From NCBI GenBank assembly GCA_003224055.1, contig QHYE01000129.1, forward strand, positions 1 to 51,080: a stretch of DNA of 51,080 nucleotides, given 5' to 3'. This DNA comes from Acidobacteriota bacterium. Lineage in GTDB: Bacteria > Acidobacteriota > Terriglobia > Acidiferrales > UBA7541. The position numbers and the translations under genes were made by a program. Below are positions 6,700-51,080 of the stretch, in pieces. The notes under the pieces are model-generated. The model saw only the letters and a program-made list of their open reading frames with translations, searched no databases and was not told where the DNA came from. The first letter of the stretch is position 1. Every line of letters begins with the position of its first letter.

Positions 6700-7656
6700 T
6701 CAGAGCGGCAATTCCCTTCCCAGTTTTTTCTCCCGCGCCAAGGCATACACTTTCATCGCCACGGCCAGATCCCACGACGCAATTCCGTTGGATTTGAAGA
6801 GCGTCACTTCGGCATCGCTGGTCCTGCCGCTGGTTTTCCCGGCGACTACATCGGAAAGTTTTTTGACGCCGGTCCAGCAGATTTCATCGCCGTGAAACGC
6901 AATGATGAGGTCGCCCGCTTCCTGGCGCGACTGCTCGACGGAATCGACTACGATGACGTCGGCGCTGGCCACCGCTTCGTCATCAAGTTCGCGCTTGTGC
7001 GCATGGTTAGCGCCAATAGCGTTGATGTGGACACCCGGCGTCAGGTCCGCACCGCTCAGGACGGGCTGCGAAGCAGTAGTTGCGGTCGACACAATGTCCG
7101 CGCCACGAGCCGCTTCCCCGGCGGAGGCAGACGGAAGCACGGGAATCCCGAGCCGCTCGGACATCTCTTTGCAAAACTTCTCGCGCCTGGCTGCGTCGCG
7201 GCCGTAGGCTCGCGCCGATTTGAGCTTTCGAACAGCGGCCACCGCTTCGAGCTGAGTTCTTGCCTGTCCACCCGTGCCGATGATGGCGGCGATGCGAGCT
7301 TCTTTGCGGGCCAGATATTTGGTAGCCACGCCGGAGGCTGCGCCCGTGCGCAATTGGCCCATATAATCGGCTTCGATCAAAGCGAGCAGGTCACCCGTGG
7401 CCATTTCGTAGAGCGGAACAAGGAAGCAAAGTTTGCCACGGACGTAAGTGTATTGCTTCATGGCGATGAAGCCGCGCGAGTAATCGGCCGCGGCCATGTA
7501 ATGGAAAAAGCCTCCGCCTGGCAGTTCGAATCGCCGGCGCGGATGCACTACGACTTCGTCCAAGGCCTGTTTGCGCGAGACCTCCTCGACCACCTCAATG
7601 GCCAGCGGCATGTTTAGAACTTCACGTACCTCGGCTTCGCTGATATGCAGCGCCAT
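6700..7656 (-). CDS. Ornithine cyclodeaminase / mu-crystallin family protein
   Basis: A 318-residue member of the OCD/mu-crystallin family, NAD(P)-dependent enzymes that include ornithine cyclodeaminase, alanine dehydrogenase and imine reductases. Visible are the central Rossmann motif [15 protein letters not shown] near residue 120, [10 protein letters not shown] in the substrate half, [22 protein letters not shown] and [16 protein letters not shown]. The substrate cannot be read from sequence. ATG 7656 is preceded by GGAGAG at good spacing; a GTG start eight residues earlier is less likely. It is convergent with the anti-sigma gene and 33 bases downstream of the SH3b gene on the same strand. 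Confidence 0.87.
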
Positions 7657-7689
7657 CGTTTCGCTCTCCAACTTGTTCACTTACGGATT

Positions 7690-8760
7690 CTATTGCTTTG
7701 TTGTAGGCTTTGCAGTTCTCACAGAACTCCGTTTGGCAGTTGAATCATTGGCTTCGCGAACGCGTCGTACAACCGTCTGGTTCAACCGGTACACGCGCTC
7801 TTCCTTGATGTTATCCATCACGCGAAAACGGAACTCCGGTTCGCCCTTTGGCCCCTTGCCAACGCGCACGGGCAATTGGCCGCAGAGGTTATTTTCGATG
7901 AATGCCGTCTCGTAGCGGCTTTTCTTCGGATACCAGGTGTAGACGCGAAGCGCGCTGAAGTCACAAGCCTGGCCTTCGGGTCCGCGGGCCGCGGCGACGA
8001 GATATTGCGGCTTATCACCGGAGGGATCGCTGACGCGATTGAGTTCGAACCAGGCGAGAGGACGCAAGTTGGCAGAGGCGGCGCCTTCACGAACGGCATC
8101 CGGAAGGTCGAGTTCGATGAAACGCCCAATTACCCAGCCGGAGATCGGAACGGTTTGATCTCCAGGCTGCGTAGTCGTATTGGCCTCAGCCGCACGAGAA
8201 GCGTTTTCACCGGGCGGACGAGTGGCCAATCCGCGAACGAGAAACCAATCTTCCTTTTTCGTTTCCGCCGGCTCGCCGGAGGAATCTTTTTCCTCCATGC
8301 TTTGCACCCAATCGGCAGTGGCGCGGCCGACGATCTCAACGGGAACGCCGCGGCTAAAATGGTAGAGGCGCGGCGTCGCTCGTCCGGGTTCGACGTGAAG
8401 ATTTGTGGCCGTTTTGGTACGGCCGCGCGCCTGGACAGGCATCGTGCGAACCTGGTTCAGAAGTTTGACGCTGCGCTGCCACAACACCGGATCCATCAGA
8501 TTTCGGGCGTCCACCCAGCCGACAGCGCCGGCAGCGGTGCGGACTTCGACGTTGTCATTGCGGCGAGCGATTATGGAGACGCGATCGCCATAGTGCAGCA
8601 TCCCGAGCGGCTCGCGCACCTGCGCGACTCTGCCCCAGAGAGTCACGCTCCGCTCGCTGACGAAGGCTTCGCCCAGCGTTTCGTGCTTCGGCCGGAACCA
8701 CCAGGCAAAGAAGCCCACGAGGCAAAGCAAAGGCACGGCAATGAGGAGTTTTCTCTTCAT
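7690..8760 (-). CDS. Membrane-anchored or exported bacterial SH3-domain protein
   Basis: 356 residues starting with a lysine/arginine-flanked hydrophobic segment (KRKLLIAVPLLCLVGFFAWWF), a signal anchor or signal peptide. SH3b-like modules follow: one near residues 35-90 (LWGRVAQVREPLG, then VGWVDARNLM) and a second near 115-210, interrupted by a low-complexity acidic insert. Such modules bind peptidoglycan or partner proteins outside the inner membrane. The C-terminal half (residues 230-330) has no domain I recognise. The tail is basic and Ser/Thr-rich. No enzymatic motif is visible. Confidence 0.65.
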   Translation of the reverse strand: MKRKLLIAVPLLCLVGFFAWWFRPKHETLGEAFVSERSVTLWGRVAQVREPLGMLHYGDRVSIIARRNDNVEVRTAAGAVGWVDARNLMDPVLWQRSVKLLNQVRTMPVQARGRTKTATNLHVEPGRATPRLYHFSRGVPVEIVGRATADWVQSMEEKDSSGEPAETKKEDWFLVRGLATRPPGENASRAAEANTTTQPGDQTVPISGWVIGRFIELDLPDAVREGAASANLRPLAWFELNRVSDPSGDKPQYLVAAARGPEGQACDFSALRVYTWYPKKSRYETAFIENNLCGQLPVRVGKGPKGEPEFRFRVMDNIKEERVYRLNQTVVRRVREANDSTAKRSSVRTAKPTTKQ

Positions 8761-8940
8761 GCGCCGTCAACGACATCCACGTTCATGGCCTTCGCCGTCA
8801 TTCCGCGTCCGTCTCGGTTGATTCCATAAAGATTGTACCTGAAAGTTTGCCAGCGCCACGGCCACTGAGGGCATTGCGTTTCTGCTAAGATGCGGGTGTG
8901 CAGAGCGCGAAATTTTGGATTGGATCGCGGAGGACACTCG

Positions 8941-9378
8941 ATGAAGTCGTTCAATTCCCTTCAGCCAGTGGGTTTGCTAGCCCTGCGGCTGGCCCTGGGG
9001 ATCATTTTCTTCTCTCATGGCTACCCGAAACTGGCACATCAGGGCGCTGGGATGCAGGGATTCTTTATGCAGCATGGGCTGCCGGGGAATTTCGTGTACA
9101 TCGCAGGAGTCTTGGAAGTCTTCGGTGGGCTGCTGCTGGTGCTGGGGTTGTTCACGCGGGGAGCCGCGCTGCTGTTGGCGATTGAAATGGGAGTGGCGAT
9201 CTGGAAAGTACACAGCAGCGGCGGCTACTTGGCCGTGCACGAGTACGAATTTCCTTTGACACTGCTGACGGCCTGCTTCGCGCTGGCTACCATAGGAGCA
9301 GGAACGATCTCGCTCGATTACCCGCTGTTTGAAAACGGAAAGAGCCGGACAAGGTTTTCCCAAAAGTCGAAAGTTTGA
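8941..9378 (+). CDS. DoxX family membrane protein
   Basis: A 145-residue protein with four hydrophobic helices. ALRLALGIIFFSHGYPKL at the front and GVLEVFGGLLLVLGLFTRGAALLLAIEMGVAIW in the middle are classic DoxX/SURF4-like segments. DoxX proteins are found in respiratory or redox membrane complexes, but many members have no proven role. ATG 8941 is preceded by GGAGG at about seven bases, which decides it over a start 17 residues upstream. It is transcribed away from the SH3b gene and towards the PspC-domain gene. Confidence 0.85.
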   Translation: MKSFNSLQPVGLLALRLALGIIFFSHGYPKLAHQGAGMQGFFMQHGLPGNFVYIAGVLEVFGGLLLVLGLFTRGAALLLAIEMGVAIWKVHSSGGYLAVHEYEFPLTLLTACFALATIGAGTISLDYPLFENGKSRTRFSQKSKV

Positions 9379-9405
9379 AGGTTTCGCCCCAGGAAAGAAT
9401 GAGAA

Positions 9406-9738
9406 CTAGGACGGCGCTGCGGTCGATGTCGCGGACATTCCCGTGTAGCCCTCCGGCACGGCAATCCAGAGGATGATATAGAGCAAGACACCCGTCCCCG
9501 CACAAAGGACCGCCAGCGCCCACAGCACCCGAACCAGGAGCGGGTCGAGATCGAAATAATCGGCCACTCCGGCGCACACACCCGCGATTTTTCGATCGTT
9601 GATCGAGCGCACAAGCCTCTTGCGCGAGTTGTAAGCAGGAGGGGCAGCTGGCGCCGCGACTTCCGGCTGTTTTGCGCCGCAGTTGTAGCAGAATTTCGAT
9701 CCAGCCGCGATGTCCTTTTGACAATTTGGGCAATTCAT
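9406..9738 (-). CDS. Zinc-ribbon and PspC-domain membrane protein
   Basis: A 110-residue protein with two parts. Residues 1-23 form a short zinc ribbon (CPNCQKD, then CYNCG), and residues about 40-95 form a PspC domain: VRSINDRKIAGVCAGVADYFDLDPLLVRVLWALAVL followed by a second hydrophobic helix ending in LWIAVPEG. PspC proteins take part in envelope-stress sensing in enterobacteria; zinc-ribbon versions are widespread and mostly uncharacterised. It lies 27 bases from the convergent doxX-like gene. Confidence 0.87.
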   Translation of the reverse strand: MNCPNCQKDIAAGSKFCYNCGAKQPEVAAPAAPPAYNSRKRLVRSINDRKIAGVCAGVADYFDLDPLLVRVLWALAVLCAGTGVLLYIILWIAVPEGYTGMSATSTAAPS

Positions 9739-9839
9739 CGAGTCACCCCCACAGAGTAGCTCCGACTTGCATTCCTATACCTAATACGTAAAGGAATCAA
9801 GGAAAGTTTCCCGAATCGACGGTCTAAACCCAAATTGGC

Positions 9840-11996
9840 TCAATACTCCAAGAGCTGCTTCACCGCCGCCGTGATATGGCCCGTCTGCGGGAGGATCACG
9901 TCCTCGAGCTTCGGCTGATACGCGCAAAACGTATCCATGGCGGCGACGCGCTTTACGGGGGCGTCCAACTCTTCGAAGAGTTCGTCCGCGATGCGCGCAG
10001 CGATTTCCGCGCCGTAGCCCCAGCTCAGCATGTCTTCATAGGCCACGATGACCCGGTGCGTCTTTCGAACCGTGGCGGCAACGGCTTCCCAATCATACGG
10101 AGAGAGTGAACGAAGATCGACGATTTCGACGGAGATGCCTTCGCGTTCGAGCTGCGCGGCGGCCACTTCCGTGCGATGGACCAAGGCGCCGTAGGTGATG
10201 ATGCTTACATCCGTGCCTTCTCTTACCGTGCGCGCCTTCCCGAAGGGAATCGTAAAATCCGGCCCGGGATTTTCCGAGCGGTTGTAGGGCTGGCGGTACA
10301 GGTGCTTGTGCTCGAGAAACAGGACCGGGTCATCGCAGCGGATGGCCGTGCGCAAAAGGCCGGCTACATCGAGGGCGGTGGAAGGCATCACCACGCGGAG
10401 GCCTGGACAGTGCGTGAAGATCGATTCGCCGCTCTGGCTATGATAGACGCCGCCGCCGGTGAGGTAGCCGCCGATCGGCACGCGAAGAACCACCGGCGCT
10501 TTGAAGGCGCCGTTCGAACGCCAGCGCATCACGCAAAGCTCGTCGCGAATCTGCATCATGGCAGGCCAGATGTAGTCGAAGAATTGAATTTCGGCAACGG
10601 GCTTTAGCCCGCGGGTCGCCATGCCGATGGCGCGGCCGACGATGCTGGCTTCCGCCAGCGGCGAATTGAAAACGCGATCGCTCCCATACTTGCGTTGCAG
10701 CCCCGCGGTCGCTTTGAAGACCCCACCCTTCCCCTTCACGTGCTTGAGGCTGTCTTCACGGCTGGCGTCGGCCACGTCTTCGCCAAAAATCGTGATGCGC
10801 TCGTCCCGCGCCATTTCGTCGGGGAGCGTTGCGGCAACCATTTCGACCATGGTCTTGGGTGCGCCGTGAAGATGCGGTTGCGATTCGAATGCGGGAAAGG
10901 TGGGATCCACCTCAGGCGAATAGACGTTCGTCCGAACGGAGTCGACCGAAGGCTCTTCTGCGGCAAGAGCCTGATCGGCGGCTTCGCGGACTTCGTTGTC
11001 GATTTCGGCTTCGAGAGATTCAATCTGCTTCTGGTCGAGGACGCCTTCGCGGACCAGGACGAGGGCAAGTTTTGAAAGCGGATCGCGTCGAGCCTCCTCT
11101 TCGCGCTCTTCCGCGGATTTGTAGAGCTTCTCATCATCGGAGAGCGAGTGGGAATAAGGACGCGTCACATGCGCGTGGATGAGCGCCGGGCCGCGGCGCT
11201 CGCGGCAATACTCCACCGCCTCTTTGCAGGCGGAATAGCTTTCGAACGGATCCGTGCCGTCAACTTCCGAAACGTGCAATCCCGGAAAACCACGGACGAG
11301 TTTGGAAATGCTTCCGCCGGCGGTCTGTACTTCAACAGGAACAGAAATGGCATAGCCGTTATCTTCGATGAGGTAGAGGAGCGGAAGCTTTTTGGCGCAA
11401 GCGACGTTCAGGGACTCCCAGAATTCGCCCTCGCTGGTGGAGCCTTCACCACCTGAGACGTACACGATTTCATCGGGCTCGTGATTCACGTGTTCCCCGA
11501 GCGGCGCCTTCTTTGCCTGCGCCAGAGCCTTGGGGCGGCCTTCGTAATACAGAGTGGCTTCAGCAGCGCCCACGGCTTGGACGAATTGCGTGCCCGTGCA
11601 GGAGGACTTGCTGACGATGTTCCATTTTGCATGGCCCCAGTGGGAGGGCATCTGCCGGCCGCCGGAACTGAGGTCATCCTTTGCTCCGACTGCGGCGAGA
11701 AGGTTCTCCAAAGGAGTTACGCCAAGCATCAGGCAGAGAGCGCGGTCGCGATAGTAGGGGTAAAACCAGTCGACGCCGGGGCGGAGGAAGAGGCCCATAA
11801 CGGCGGTGATCGCTTCATGCCCGGCGCTGGAAATCTGAAAATAGATTTTGTTCTGCCGCTTCAGCTGGATTTCGCGATCGTCCAGCCGCCGCGATAGGTA
11901 CATCGTGCGGTAAAGGCGTATCAGGGTTTCGTGATCGAGGCCGTGAACTTTGGGGGCGTCAAGTTTTCCCACTTTGACGCGCGTTTGTGACGCCAT
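9840..11996 (-). CDS. 2-oxoacid dehydrogenase E1 component, alpha and beta subunits fused
   Basis: 718 residues combining both halves of a thiamine-diphosphate-dependent E1. The alpha half (about 1-360) has the motif [18 protein letters not shown] and later DNGYAIS, the ThDP/Mg site. The beta half (about 385-718) has [27 protein letters not shown] and the transketolase C-terminal domain ([12 protein letters not shown]). The reaction is oxidative decarboxylation of pyruvate or branched-chain 2-oxoacids onto an E2 lipoyl domain. No E2 or E3 gene is nearby. ATG 11996 has GAGGG about nine bases upstream and was preferred to a TTG 17 codons earlier. The substrate class is not resolved. Confidence 0.9.
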
Positions 11997-12171
11997 TCGT
12001 TCTGCCCTCGCCTTTGGGATCGGGGTTCTTGCGTCCGCGGGATTCAATTATAGCGGATTTCGTTGTTCGCCTGCTTAAATTGACCCGTCAAGCGCATCCT
12101 AGCCGTGCCAGAAACAGACCAAATTGGCCTTATGATGACTTGTTCCAACACCAAGCGTTTGTGGGGTCGCG

Positions 12172-12612
12172 TTAATCGAGCGATTCGAACTGCTGGTCGG
12201 CTTTCTCGAATTCCGGGTCGAATTGCTGAATTACCTTCGGGGAAGCGCTCTTGAAAGGCTCCTCCGACGGGATACGCGCAACCCAGCGCTGCTCCGAAAG
12301 TCTTTCGTGGGAGGAAAAGTACAAACGCACGAGCAGGCCTACTTTGCCGTCGGCGGCGGATTTAGACTTTTCTGTAACGGACTCACTTGGCTTGTCCTTC
12401 GACTTTCCCTTGGCCTTGGGAGAAGGCGCCGGATTTTCCGCGGCCACCGTCTTGGCGGCCGGTTCTCCCGCGGGGCCCCCGGGGCGATCGAGTTTGTAGA
12501 GGAGTTTCTTGTCCAAGCGGAAAGCTTGCTTCCAGCCGTCGAGCTTGTGGCGCGCCAACTGCGCTTTTTCTTCGTCCGTGCCAAAGTCCAATCGGATGTA
12601 AATGTGGGACAT
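12172..12612 (-). CDS. Hypothetical protein with lysine-rich central linker
   Basis: A 146-residue protein not matched to a family I know. The first 45 residues (MSHIYIRLDFGTDEEKAQLARHKLDGWKQAF) look folded. A Pro/Ala/Lys/Ser-rich linker runs from about 50 to 90, and the C-terminal part (VGLLVRLYFSSHERLSEQRWVARIP) looks like a strand-rich half-domain. No signal peptide or membrane segment is visible. The ATG at 12612 was preferred because upstream in-frame sequence is unlike the rest. It lies upstream of the E1 gene on the same strand, separated by 175 bases without visible genes. Confidence 0.6.
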   Translation of the reverse strand: MSHIYIRLDFGTDEEKAQLARHKLDGWKQAFRLDKKLLYKLDRPGGPAGEPAAKTVAAENPAPSPKAKGKSKDKPSESVTEKSKSAADGKVGLLVRLYFSSHERLSEQRWVARIPSEEPFKSASPKVIQQFDPEFEKADQQFESLD

Positions 12613-47526: not shown

Positions 47527-48207
47527 TTATTTTCCCAGGTAAAGAAGCGCCAAAAGAAAAACCCAAAGCCCATCCATGAAATGCCAATAATACGAAGTGA
47601 TTTCCGCGGCGGTGCTGAGCGAAATTCTTTTTTGATCGGATTTGCGGAAGGAAACGTAAAGAAGTGCGCCCACGCCGCCCAGGAGATGCACTGCGTGGGC
47701 GCCCGTGAAAATATAAAAAAAGCTGCTGGCCTGGTTGCTGGCGATATACACCCCTTGCGCGACCAGTTGCCGCCAGGCAACAAGTTGTCCTGCAACAAAT
47801 AAGATCCCCAAGCCCGTGGTAAGCAGCCAGAACTTTCTGAAACCGGATGGGTCGGCGAGAGAGAGCCGCCGCCGTGACGCTTCCAGAGTGAAACTGCTCG
47901 CGAGAAGAATCAGTGTGTTCGCCAAAAGAATTGGCGGCAGATGCACAGTCACCCACACTTCGCTGCCGCGCCGTAAAACGATGAAGGCGCTGGCGAGAGC
48001 CATGAAGAACATCAATATAGATACGAGAGCGATCGTGATTGCCGTGGAGTAGCGCTTGGGCGAGGGAGATTGTTTGCGACCACGATTGTCGTTGTCCCCG
48101 CCCCCGTCGCCGCCATTGTCGTCATCGCCTGGGGGCGGATTTCCACGGCCACCGCCGATGTCTTCGATGATCAGTTCGATTTCAGGAGGTGAGGTTGTGC
48201 CGGGCAT
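47527..48207 (-). CDS. Heme-copper oxidase subunit III-like protein
   Basis: 226 residues. An acidic/Gly/Pro/Asn-rich N-terminal extension (about 1-55) precedes the subunit III core. That core has ITIALVSILMFFMALASAFIVLRR, then LPPILLANTLILLASSFTLE, FYIFTGAHAVHLLGGVGALLYVSFR and SYYWHFMDGLWVFLLALLYL, which are family marks in order, with about five transmembrane helices. Subunit III supports oxidase stability and proton uptake. It starts 20 bases after the subunit I stop on the same strand. The N-terminal extension is unusual. ATG 48207 is the first in-frame Met with a plausible N-terminus; longer in-frame sequence overlaps subunit I. Confidence 0.88.
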   Translation of the reverse strand: MPGTTSPPEIELIIEDIGGGRGNPPPGDDDNGGDGGGDNDNRGRKQSPSPKRYSTAITIALVSILMFFMALASAFIVLRRGSEVWVTVHLPPILLANTLILLASSFTLEASRRRLSLADPSGFRKFWLLTTGLGILFVAGQLVAWRQLVAQGVYIASNQASSFFYIFTGAHAVHLLGGVGALLYVSFRKSDQKRISLSTAAEITSYYWHFMDGLWVFLLALLYLGK

Positions 48208-48227: not shown

Positions 48228-49910
48228 TCAGCGCGCCTTGGATACTTGTTCGGGCGACAGGTGCTGGGGAACGAAATCTTCGGCGACGCCGAGCACGCTG
48301 AATTCGTAAGCTCCACGATACACCACCGGGCCGGTGGCGCCAAAATCCCCGGCGGGCGGCGGAGAGGAGACGCTCCATTCGAGCGTGGTCGCGCGCCAGG
48401 GATTGCGTTCTTCGATTTTTTCGCCGCGGAAAAGACTCCACAGAAAATTGAAGAGAAAAATTCCTTGCGCGAGAACCAGGAGGATTGCGGCGACGGTGAT
48501 GAAGGCGCGGACGGGCGCGACCATCGCTGAGATTGCGGCGATGCGGCTGCCGGAGTAGAGGTTGGCGTGTGTAAGCAGGCCGAGCCAGTGCAGGGGCATG
48601 AAGACAAGATAGACGCCGGCGAAGGTGAGCCAGAAATGAATCTTGCCAAGCGACTCGTTGAGCCGGCGGCCGAAGAGTTTTGGAAACCAGAAAAACAGGG
48701 CGCCAAGGATGGCGAAGGTGGCGGCGACGCCCATGACGAGATGGAAATGTCCGGTGATAAATTCGTCGCTGACGGCTGCGGCGGCGAGATCGCGGCCTGC
48801 AAGGAAGATTCCAGAAATTCCGCCGGCCATGAATAGCGAAACGAAGCCGATGGCGAACAACATGGAGGTGTTGAGCTGGATGCGCGCGTTCCAGAGCGTG
48901 CCGAGCCAACTGATCAGCAGAATCGTGGCGGGCAGGCCGAGCGAGGAAGCCAGGAGCGAAAAGACAAGCGGGGAAAACGGGTTCATGCCGCTGGCAAACA
49001 TGTGCTGGCCCCAAACGCAGAATCCAAAGAGGCCTACGCCGCACAATGCCAGAACTACGAGGCGTTCAATCCAAACGGGCTTGCGGGAAAACGTGGAGAG
49101 GAGATGGGTGGTGAGCCCGAAGCACGGGAGCATGGCAATGTAGACTTCGGCTTGGGCGAAAAACCAGAAGAGGCGCTGCCAAAGCACAGGAAGAAAATTC
49201 GCGACAAAACTTGCGGGTTGACCGGCAAGAAAATTCAGCGGTGGAAAAAAGTGCGTGCTCGAAAGGCGATCCGATAGCAAGCAGACGGAGGCGGCGAGGA
49301 GAATGCTGAAAATCAATGTGCTCAGAATTCCGTTGATGAACCAGGCCCAGACGGTGAGCGGGAGCCGCGGCAGGGTCATGCCACGGGCGCGGAGATCGAT
49401 GGTGGTGACGCTGAAATTGATGCCGTTGCAAAGAGAGGCGAGGGAGAAGAGCGCGACGCTGGCGGTCCAGAGGGTGATGCCTGTTTCCGGGGCGGCCAGG
49501 AACGCGATGGTCAGACCGATGAGCGAGGCGGCGGTGGCCCAGAAGGAGAGCCGGTTCAGTTTGGGGAAGGCCATTTCGCGCGCGCCGATTTGCAGCGGCA
49601 GGAAATAGTTGCCGAAGCCGGCTTGCGGCGCGGCGGTTAGCACCAGAAAAACCATGAGCGAGCCGTGAAATGTGGTGAGAGCGGCGTAGCGTTCCAGAGA
49701 GGACCCGGACAAGAACGGAAGTCGTATGCCGGGCCAGACGAGATGGATGCGCATGAGGAGCGACATCGCCAAGCCGAGAAAAACGCTGAACAGCGCGAGC
49801 CAGAGATAGTTCAGCCCAATCACTTTGTGGTCGGTGCTGAGCAGAGTGCGCCCCAGGAAGCCGGGTTGCGACGTTTCTGCTTGATTTGCTGCGCTCTCGT
49901 CGTTGGCCAT
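48228..49910 (-). CDS. Heme-copper oxidase subunit I-like protein with altered CuB site
   Basis: 560 residues, with about twelve helices and subunit I marks: LGRTLLSTDHKVIGLNYLW, TTFHGSLMVF, GAREMAFPKLN, and GHFHLVMG. Low-spin heme ligands would be H82 and H390, and high-spin heme ligand H388; all three are present. The helix VI motif HPEVY reads QAEVY (Q253, Y257 kept), and the helix VII HH pair reads QH (Q302, H303), so two of three CuB ligands are lost. The K-channel Lys position is Leu (L331). E255 of the HPEVY motif is kept. The D-channel entrance Asp aligns with Glu (E112). It therefore cannot bind CuB normally and may not reduce oxygen. No subunit II lies nearby. ATG 49910 was chosen because the fold starts soon after. 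Confidence 0.9.
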   Translation of the reverse strand: MANDESAANQAETSQPGFLGRTLLSTDHKVIGLNYLWLALFSVFLGLAMSLLMRIHLVWPGIRLPFLSGSSLERYAALTTFHGSLMVFLVLTAAPQAGFGNYFLPLQIGAREMAFPKLNRLSFWATAASLIGLTIAFLAAPETGITLWTASVALFSLASLCNGINFSVTTIDLRARGMTLPRLPLTVWAWFINGILSTLIFSILLAASVCLLSDRLSSTHFFPPLNFLAGQPASFVANFLPVLWQRLFWFFAQAEVYIAMLPCFGLTTHLLSTFSRKPVWIERLVVLALCGVGLFGFCVWGQHMFASGMNPFSPLVFSLLASSLGLPATILLISWLGTLWNARIQLNTSMLFAIGFVSLFMAGGISGIFLAGRDLAAAAVSDEFITGHFHLVMGVAATFAILGALFFWFPKLFGRRLNESLGKIHFWLTFAGVYLVFMPLHWLGLLTHANLYSGSRIAAISAMVAPVRAFITVAAILLVLAQGIFLFNFLWSLFRGEKIEERNPWRATTLEWSVSSPPPAGDFGATGPVVYRGAYEFSVLGVAEDFVPQHLSPEQVSKAR

Positions 49911-50891: not shown

Positions 50892-51080
50892 CTATTTCAA
50901 AACCCTCCGTAAGACGATGATGAAGCAGGCGATATGAAAGAATGCGCTGTAAATCGTGAGCGAGCGGTCATAGCGAACCACCAGATGCCGGAAGTTGCCG
51001 AGCCACGCGAAGGTGCGCTCGACTTTCCAGCGCCTGCGGTAGCGCCGCAGCGCTCGTCCGTCTTGGGTCACCGGTTTGCT
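50892..51080 (-). CDS. IS5-family transposase, C-terminal fragment (runs off right edge)
   Basis: The minus strand codes for 62 residues ending at a stop at 50892-50894. The stretch RRYRRRWKVERTFAWLGNFR, then VVRYDRSLTIYSAFFHIACFIIVLRRVLK, is the typical C-terminal end of IS5/IS1182-like DDE transposases, including the last catalytic Glu in VERTFAW. The start lies beyond the window. No convincing inverted repeat was identified at this side. Confidence 0.88.
   Translation of the reverse strand, partial: SKPVTQDGRALRRYRRRWKVERTFAWLGNFRHLVVRYDRSLTIYSAFFHIACFIIVLRRVLK

Follow-up and report, generated by a model that had tools for sequence, protein, structure and literature searches.

We found that the oxidase subunit I (COX1) gene in the 51,080-nucleotide stretch of DNA analyzed here (the window) is, by its sequence, an A1-type COX1 paralogue that is kept within one genus of soil bacteria, is under purifying selection, and is paired with a subunit III (COX3) gene, with no adjacent subunit II (COX2) gene found. 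The clade that it represents is a variant of the heme-copper oxidase superfamily, and its function is something that we infer. Its role is probably not one in ordinary respiration. By established enzymology, the loss of two CuB ligands along with the Tyr-His cross-link, the K path, and a CuA subunit makes ordinary O2 reduction and pumping very unlikely, so that the protein is unlikely to serve as a normal terminal oxidase or pump.

The window gene (P0001; positions 48228 to 49910, minus strand) encodes 560 amino acids plus a stop. Its ATG (49908-49910) and TGA stop (48228-48230) were verified by codon check, and the start is supported by the many relatives that share it and by an alignment spanning residues 1-560. 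Residues were mapped by alignment to P. denitrificans subunit I (1ar1_A), whose His and Arg residues we take to have their customary roles in that numbering. By this mapping, Q253 (CAA, 49152-49154) and Q302 (CAG, 49005-49007) occupy the positions of the CuB ligands H276 and H325, L331 (CTG, 48918-48920) occupies that of K354 in the K path, H303 (CAC, 49002-49004) is the retained CuB ligand H326, and Y257 (TAC, 49140-49142) is the retained active-site Y280, all on the minus strand. E255 (GAA) corresponds to E278, and H82, H388, and H390 (CAC, CAT, and CAT) correspond to H94, H411, and H413, while N450-L451 (48558-48563, minus strand) stand in place of the heme-propionate pair Arg473-Arg474. 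The coordinates and codons that a preliminary description had given for Q253 and Q302 proved exact; it had missed the COX3 partner and the absent COX2, and also that the Mg-site His and Arg473/Arg474 had been lost and the D path retained. Its interpretation is partly supported, and its observation is confirmed and extended.

The protein retains the COX1 fold, with a match to PF00115 at an E value of 2.3e-96. An AlphaFold2 model of the window COX1, made with 42 window and locus sequences, reached a pLDDT of 82.7 and a pTM of 0.87, and its best PDB match by Foldseek was the oxidase 7ate_A, an A-type subunit I (TM score, 0.79). Against TIGR02891, the CtaD/CoxA equivalog, the protein scored 422.5 bits versus a cutoff of 670.75, but the normal oxidases L002 (629.9) and L030 (614.9) also fell below it and L001 (686.8) alone among six comparison proteins passed; because normal relatives fall short too, we dropped this shortfall as a sign of nonmembership. 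Scores against the quinol oxidase profiles CyoB (TIGR02843) and QoxB (TIGR02882) were 273.7 and 270.9 bits, far below the cutoffs of 1020.35 and 1015.5, respectively.

The changes at the active site are shared across the clade. Among 25 intact copies, position 253 is Gln in 24 and Leu in 1, and position 302 is Gln in 16, Glu in 4, Tyr in 4, and Leu in 1, whereas both are His in all 23 sequences of the comparison set, which excludes the partial L092, L099, and L100 and counts among its members six A1 sequences that lack the K-path Lys. Only four of the six His residues of A-type oxygen reductases (two for the low-spin heme, one for the high-spin heme, and three for CuB) are therefore retained, and close relatives with His at 253 or 302, which the preliminary description had named as the sign of a sequencing error or a decaying single copy, were not found (0/25). 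The cross-link partner of the active-site Tyr is the CuB ligand His276; the Tyr is kept in 25/25 copies, but the partner position is Gln or Leu, and the Tyr-His cross-link is lost. Invariant in all 25 copies are the three heme His residues, H303 (the third CuB His), Y257 (Tyr280), W249 (Trp272), E255 (Glu278), R54 (Arg54), and N165; of these, the Trp, the Tyr, and H303 are on the distal side of the heme. Such invariance of the heme ligands and of residues in the pocket suggests that hemes are bound, and the earlier proposal of two hemes without a normal CuB holds at the level of sequence, as the heme ligands are kept and the CuB positions changed in 25/25.

Further losses lie outside the binuclear site. 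An Arg-Arg pair at Arg473/Arg474 is present in 0/25 clade members (11 of which keep an Arg at the first position only) versus 23/23 comparison sequences, and the Mg-site His is kept in none of the 25. A loop stretch after residue 141 is missing in 26/26 clade rows, a count for which both sets comprise 26 rows and still include the broken L025 and partial rows. The loop, the Arg pair, and the Mg site all belong to the face of the protein that carries CuA and subunit II. Moreover, the invariant His preceding the HPEVY motif is replaced by R246 in 25/25 members. The clade also carries Cys residues on helices VI and VII (C263 in 24, C290 in 25, and C298 in 24 of 25), compared with 0, 1, and 0 of 23 at these positions in the comparison set.

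The two proton paths, with residues listed as in the accessible text of PMC3084760, have fared differently. Six D-path positions are retained in at least 23 of the 25 members: Y35 (24), N101 (24), E112 (the Asp124 position; Glu in 24 and Asp in 1), N119 (23), N165 (25), and E255 (25), with S122 (S134; 17/25) and S159 (S193; 10/25) being weaker. In the K path, position 331 (Lys354) is Leu in 25/25 members, the Thr351 position is Ala in 23 and Ser in 2, and the Ser291 position is Thr in 16, Ser in 8, and Ala in 1; Tyr280 is kept. The loss of the Lys does not define the clade by itself, since position 331 in the comparison set is Lys in 17, Ile in 3, Val in 2, and Met in 1, so that 6 of 23 A1 sequences also lack it. 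Five A1 oxidases from the same genus (L086, L098, L102, L103, and L105) form one clade of their own (100/100), in which all three CuB His residues are present, the K-path Lys is replaced by V, I, M, I, and V, respectively, and HATY is found instead of HDTY.

The clade gene was found in 27 of 36 genus genomes, the window's included, at 57 to 100% identity by tblastn, and is intact in 25. The two broken copies are in G012 (interrupted by TAG), which still has Q/Q/L at 253, 302, and 331, and in G029 (interrupted, in two pieces), which has Q, D, Q, H, and L at 253, 255, 302, 303, and 331; the corresponding loci L025/L050 (G012, also truncated where the contig stops) and L057/L114 (G029) were left out of the 25. 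Nine of the 36 genomes yielded no relative, although completeness reaches at least 96% in four of these (G007, G009, G010, and G033), and the gene is therefore dispensable. A contig scan returned 30 loci, of which 24 (L034-L057) fall in the clade (L034 being the window's closest relative, at 86% identity), many being duplicates of the genus genomes under public names; 22 are labeled Acidobacteria bacterium (12 of these 'gp2'), 1 Candidatus Acidiferrum typicum, and 1 Betaproteobacteria. The last (L049) is identical to the G006 member over the compared stretch, and its label looks wrong. Genomes were also screened with a degenerate nucleotide pattern encoding WFFxQxE[VIM]Y, which matched 21 of 89 family genomes, all within one of 13 genera, and 2 of 396 genomes in a phylum sample, one hit being that of the window genome and the other arising by chance in a nonoxidase frame; these counts are lower bounds, as the pattern misses variants such as LAEVY (G028) and WYFAQAEVY (G034). 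With 2/396 matches, one of them by chance, we dropped the idea of a wider spread across the phylum.

When 54 COX1 rows were placed in a maximum-likelihood tree, the 25 clade members occupy a single branch (100/100) with a stem length of 1.01, in agreement with the prediction that Q253, Q302, and L331 would be shared by a clade. This branch is nested within the A1 oxidases, where its neighbor (89/82) is L030, which comes from a different genus in the family, and it does not group with L002, the window genome's own A1 oxidase. The best BLAST matches of the clade COX3 outside the clade are likewise the COX3 proteins of L030-L032 (48 to 53%), compared with 38% for the own-genome copy at L115, an affinity that parallels the COX1 tree and fits descent of COX1 and COX3 as a pair. 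Nei-Gojobori dN/dS ratios were 0.09 to 0.15 for 12 clade pairs versus 0.02 to 0.07 for 8 other A1 pairs, the pairs being hand-picked and, with some overlapping, not all independent. By these ratios the clade COX1 is under purifying selection and less constrained than a respiratory oxidase.

The gene neighborhood points to a two-gene unit. In the window, COX3 (47527 to 48207, minus strand; 226 amino acids plus a stop; PF00510, E value of 7.6e-12) lies 20 bp past the COX1 stop, with start and gap verified, and COX3 lies downstream on the same strand in 26/26 clade loci examined, one per genome, excluding G012, where the contig ends. COX2 was detected by BLAST in 0 of 33 clade loci, which overlap (several genomes are counted twice) and are in some cases short (L050, 3.4 kb; L046, 6.2 kb), and in 24 of 25 comparison loci, which include the sources of the COX2 queries (L115, L116, and L058) and two Binatota-related loci; the sole exception, L099, is truncated where its contig stops. 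A CuA subunit II partner was thus not found at the clade loci. An unlinked partner elsewhere is possible, but the window genome has two COX2 genes for three COX1 genes, each COX2 beside another COX1. In G014 a COX2 gene lies on the clade gene's contig, about 75 kb off. All 27 genomes that carry the clade gene also have other COX1 and COX2 genes. The other COX1 genes of the window genome are one of A1 type and one of HPAVY type, and those of G023 are an A1 type without the Lys and one further COX1. The normal A1 operon of the window genome reads COX2-COX1-COX3-second COX3-COX4-like, the last two being named by eye. The preliminary suggestion of an electron carrier is weakened by the COX2 count (0/33) and because the Arg pair, the Mg-site His, and a loop are missing.

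Other neighbors vary. About 1 kb upstream of COX1, at the window end, lies the 3' end of a DDE transposase (50892 to 51080, minus strand; PF01609, E value of 6.7e-7 on 50895-51080). In several loci gapA-pgk-tpiA-secG lie upstream of the pair (L054:1716-5515 and L056:627-4293); they are absent from some loci, and we rejected them as meaningful neighbors, as their location looks like chance. Just upstream of the pair in L047 (6456-7082 and 7433-7783) are a Cap15-type cyclic-dinucleotide receptor and a superinfection-immunity-like protein, and frames related to these two proteins occur in some other loci.

Taken from sequence, the account that we tentatively favor, at somewhat less than even chances, is that COX1 and COX3 make up a two-heme membrane protein that binds gas at a heme without CuB and serves as a sensor or regulator or as a slow redox protein. 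COX1 and COX3 would form a membrane complex with two hemes that is incapable of four-electron O2 reduction or normal pumping. Its high-spin heme would be five-coordinate, with the distal side lined by Gln, His, and Tyr, and would bind a diatomic gas, most likely O2, while the D path and COX3 would deliver protons to Glu278 and the heme pocket. Such a complex may be a membrane gas or redox sensor or regulator; alternatively, it may be a slow one- or two-electron redox protein with a donor other than CuA. Several observations count against this. The long stem (1.01) and the faster evolution mean that heme binding itself could be relaxed, and loss of the Arg473/474 pair could weaken it. No sensor output domain was recognized, the conserved neighbor being COX3 only. 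Of the 36 genus genomes, 34 have a heme A synthase family gene, which favors the account, but G014, which carries the clade gene, has no heme A synthase match, which speaks against a reading in terms of heme A.

Taken more broadly, there is a nearly even chance that these proteins form a new class of membrane heme protein, made of COX1 and COX3 without CuA or CuB, that acts as a gas sensor or a redox-neutral gas enzyme. If so, they would offer an oxidase core that naturally lacks CuB, the K path, and the pump-gate residues but still has its D path, and that perhaps makes use of a new site formed by the Cys residues of helices VI and VII. In the clade, selection has in effect taken apart the proton-pumping oxidase that is best known, with the heme sites, Tyr, Glu278, D path, and COX3 retained and the CuB ligands, K path, propionate Arg pair, Mg-site His, and CuA shed, and the outcome tests the role of the D path and COX3 in the absence of a binuclear center.

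The main rival is a noncatalytic partner of normal oxidases, that is, a pseudoenzyme scaffold of COX1 and COX3 that assembles, dimerizes, or down-regulates them, with hemes that are structural or absent. It would account for a fold and a COX3 partner that stay under purifying selection after the active site has gone, and for the presence of other COX1 and COX2 genes in 27/27 carrier genomes. We nonetheless consider it doubtful, as heme ligands and several pocket residues are invariant in 25/25 copies, which is more than a scaffold seems to need, and the co-occurring normal oxidases vary, as seen in the window genome and G023.

It is unlikely that the clade is a nitric oxide enzyme, reductase or dismutase-like, derived from an A-type oxidase and needing no external electrons. 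The clade does share the logic of the putative NO dismutases as described in the available text of PMC3413370, position 302 is Gln or Glu in 20 of 25 members, and the only NirK genome, G004, carries the clade gene. On the other side, NirK was found in just that 1 of the 36 genus genomes, no fourth COX1-family gene, and hence no NO reductase of that family, was found in the window genome beyond its three, and residue 302 varies among Gln, Glu, Tyr, and Leu, unlike a catalytic ligand. The Tyr is also retained, whereas the NO reductase families tabulated in PMC8756737 differ there. Cytochrome d1 (NirS) was found in 0/36 genus genomes and equally in 0/14 control genomes. The NirK count, the three COX1-family genes, and the retained Tyr weaken the suggestion, made in the preliminary description, of an enzyme acting on nitric oxide.

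A different metal or thiol center, in which C263, C290, and C298 replace the CuB and K-path chemistry, is also improbable; the near-complete conservation of these Cys residues in the clade and their near absence from the comparison set speak for it, but C263 and C298 are each missing from one member, and Cys also occurs at 290 in a single comparison oxidase. We give still less credence to a proton-conducting leak, with the D path open to the pocket and the pump-side gate (Arg pair and Mg site) gone, which would suit a largely retained D path combined with the loss of the K path, the Arg pair, and the Mg-site His, but which is purely inferential and has no need of invariant heme ligands and Tyr. 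Least credible of all is a decaying remnant or an assembly or sequencing artifact: in its favor, 2 of 27 copies in the genus are disrupted, the window has the end of a transposase gene some 1 kb upstream, and evolution is faster than in normal oxidases, but 25 intact copies in 25 genomes that share the changes, with COX3 adjoining and a dN/dS of 0.09 to 0.15 in the 12 pairs, led us to reject both sequencing error and the decay of an isolated copy and already contradict this reading at the clade level.

CuB depletion has arisen a second time. Two Binatota-related loci, L058 (Candidatus Binatus soli; operon at 7240-12380) and L059 (operon at 7162-12365), encode a COX1 with QPEIY and QH motifs, at only 38% identity; it has Gln at H276 and H325, keeps H326, and has Glu or Val at Lys354. 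They were the only matches to a pattern search among 98 genomes of the Binatota-related class. Both form a separate branch in the tree, which requires two changes to the CuB-depleted state, and their depletion is independent of that in the genus clade. Unlike the clade, they have COX2 beside COX1, with the CuA motif CAELCGFGHSGM, and the COX1 Arg pair is retained; in L058 the order by Pfam is COX2-COX1-CtaA-UbiA (CtaB-like)-COX3, with CtaA and CtaB-like genes adjoining. Contigs from a viral collection (L135-L138, one of 134 kb) encode four COX1 proteins at 31 to 35% identity.

In a literature search that took in few subscription papers or preprints, we recognized no paper on a CuB-depleted COX1-COX3 pair. 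According to the available text of PMC3084760, the heme-copper oxidase classifier described there discarded sequences without six His residues, a rule that the clade COX1 fails. With such filtering, proteins of this kind can be missed by surveys or mistaken for ordinary cytochrome c oxidase. Compared with the A1 aa3 oxidase (1ar1/7ate), the clade has the same fold, three heme His residues, H326, Tyr280, Glu278, most of the D path, and the COX3 partner, but it lacks two CuB His residues, K354, the Mg-site His, Arg473/474, the loop, and an adjacent COX2.

The clade also resembles eNOR and the alternative NO reductases in being part of the heme-copper oxidase superfamily with an altered active site. 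As tabulated in PMC8756737, eNOR has a diagnostic Gln in place of the active-site Tyr and a cupredoxin subunit II, the alternative NO reductases have a non-Tyr residue (Q, N, or D) at that position, and cNOR and qNOR have Glu. In the clade the position is Tyr in 25/25 copies, Gln replaces a CuB His instead, and no subunit II was found; since the tabulated enzymes differ at the Tyr position, the clade is not eNOR, sNOR, gNOR, cNOR, or qNOR as they are given there. We likewise rejected the clade Gln as a mark of eNOR, as it sits at a different position.

In its logic, the clade is closest to the putative NO dismutases as portrayed in the available text of PMC3413370, which are qNOR-like proteins with one metal-ligand His changed to Asn, electron entry lost, and the proton path altered. 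Both are descendants of heme-copper oxidases in which a metal-ligand His has been replaced, electron entry lost, and the proton path changed. They differ in that the clade has Asn at no ligand position and is nested in the A1 oxidases (in a tree built without qNOR): it is an A1 oxidase that has lost two His residues, has kept its Tyr, and remains paired with COX3.
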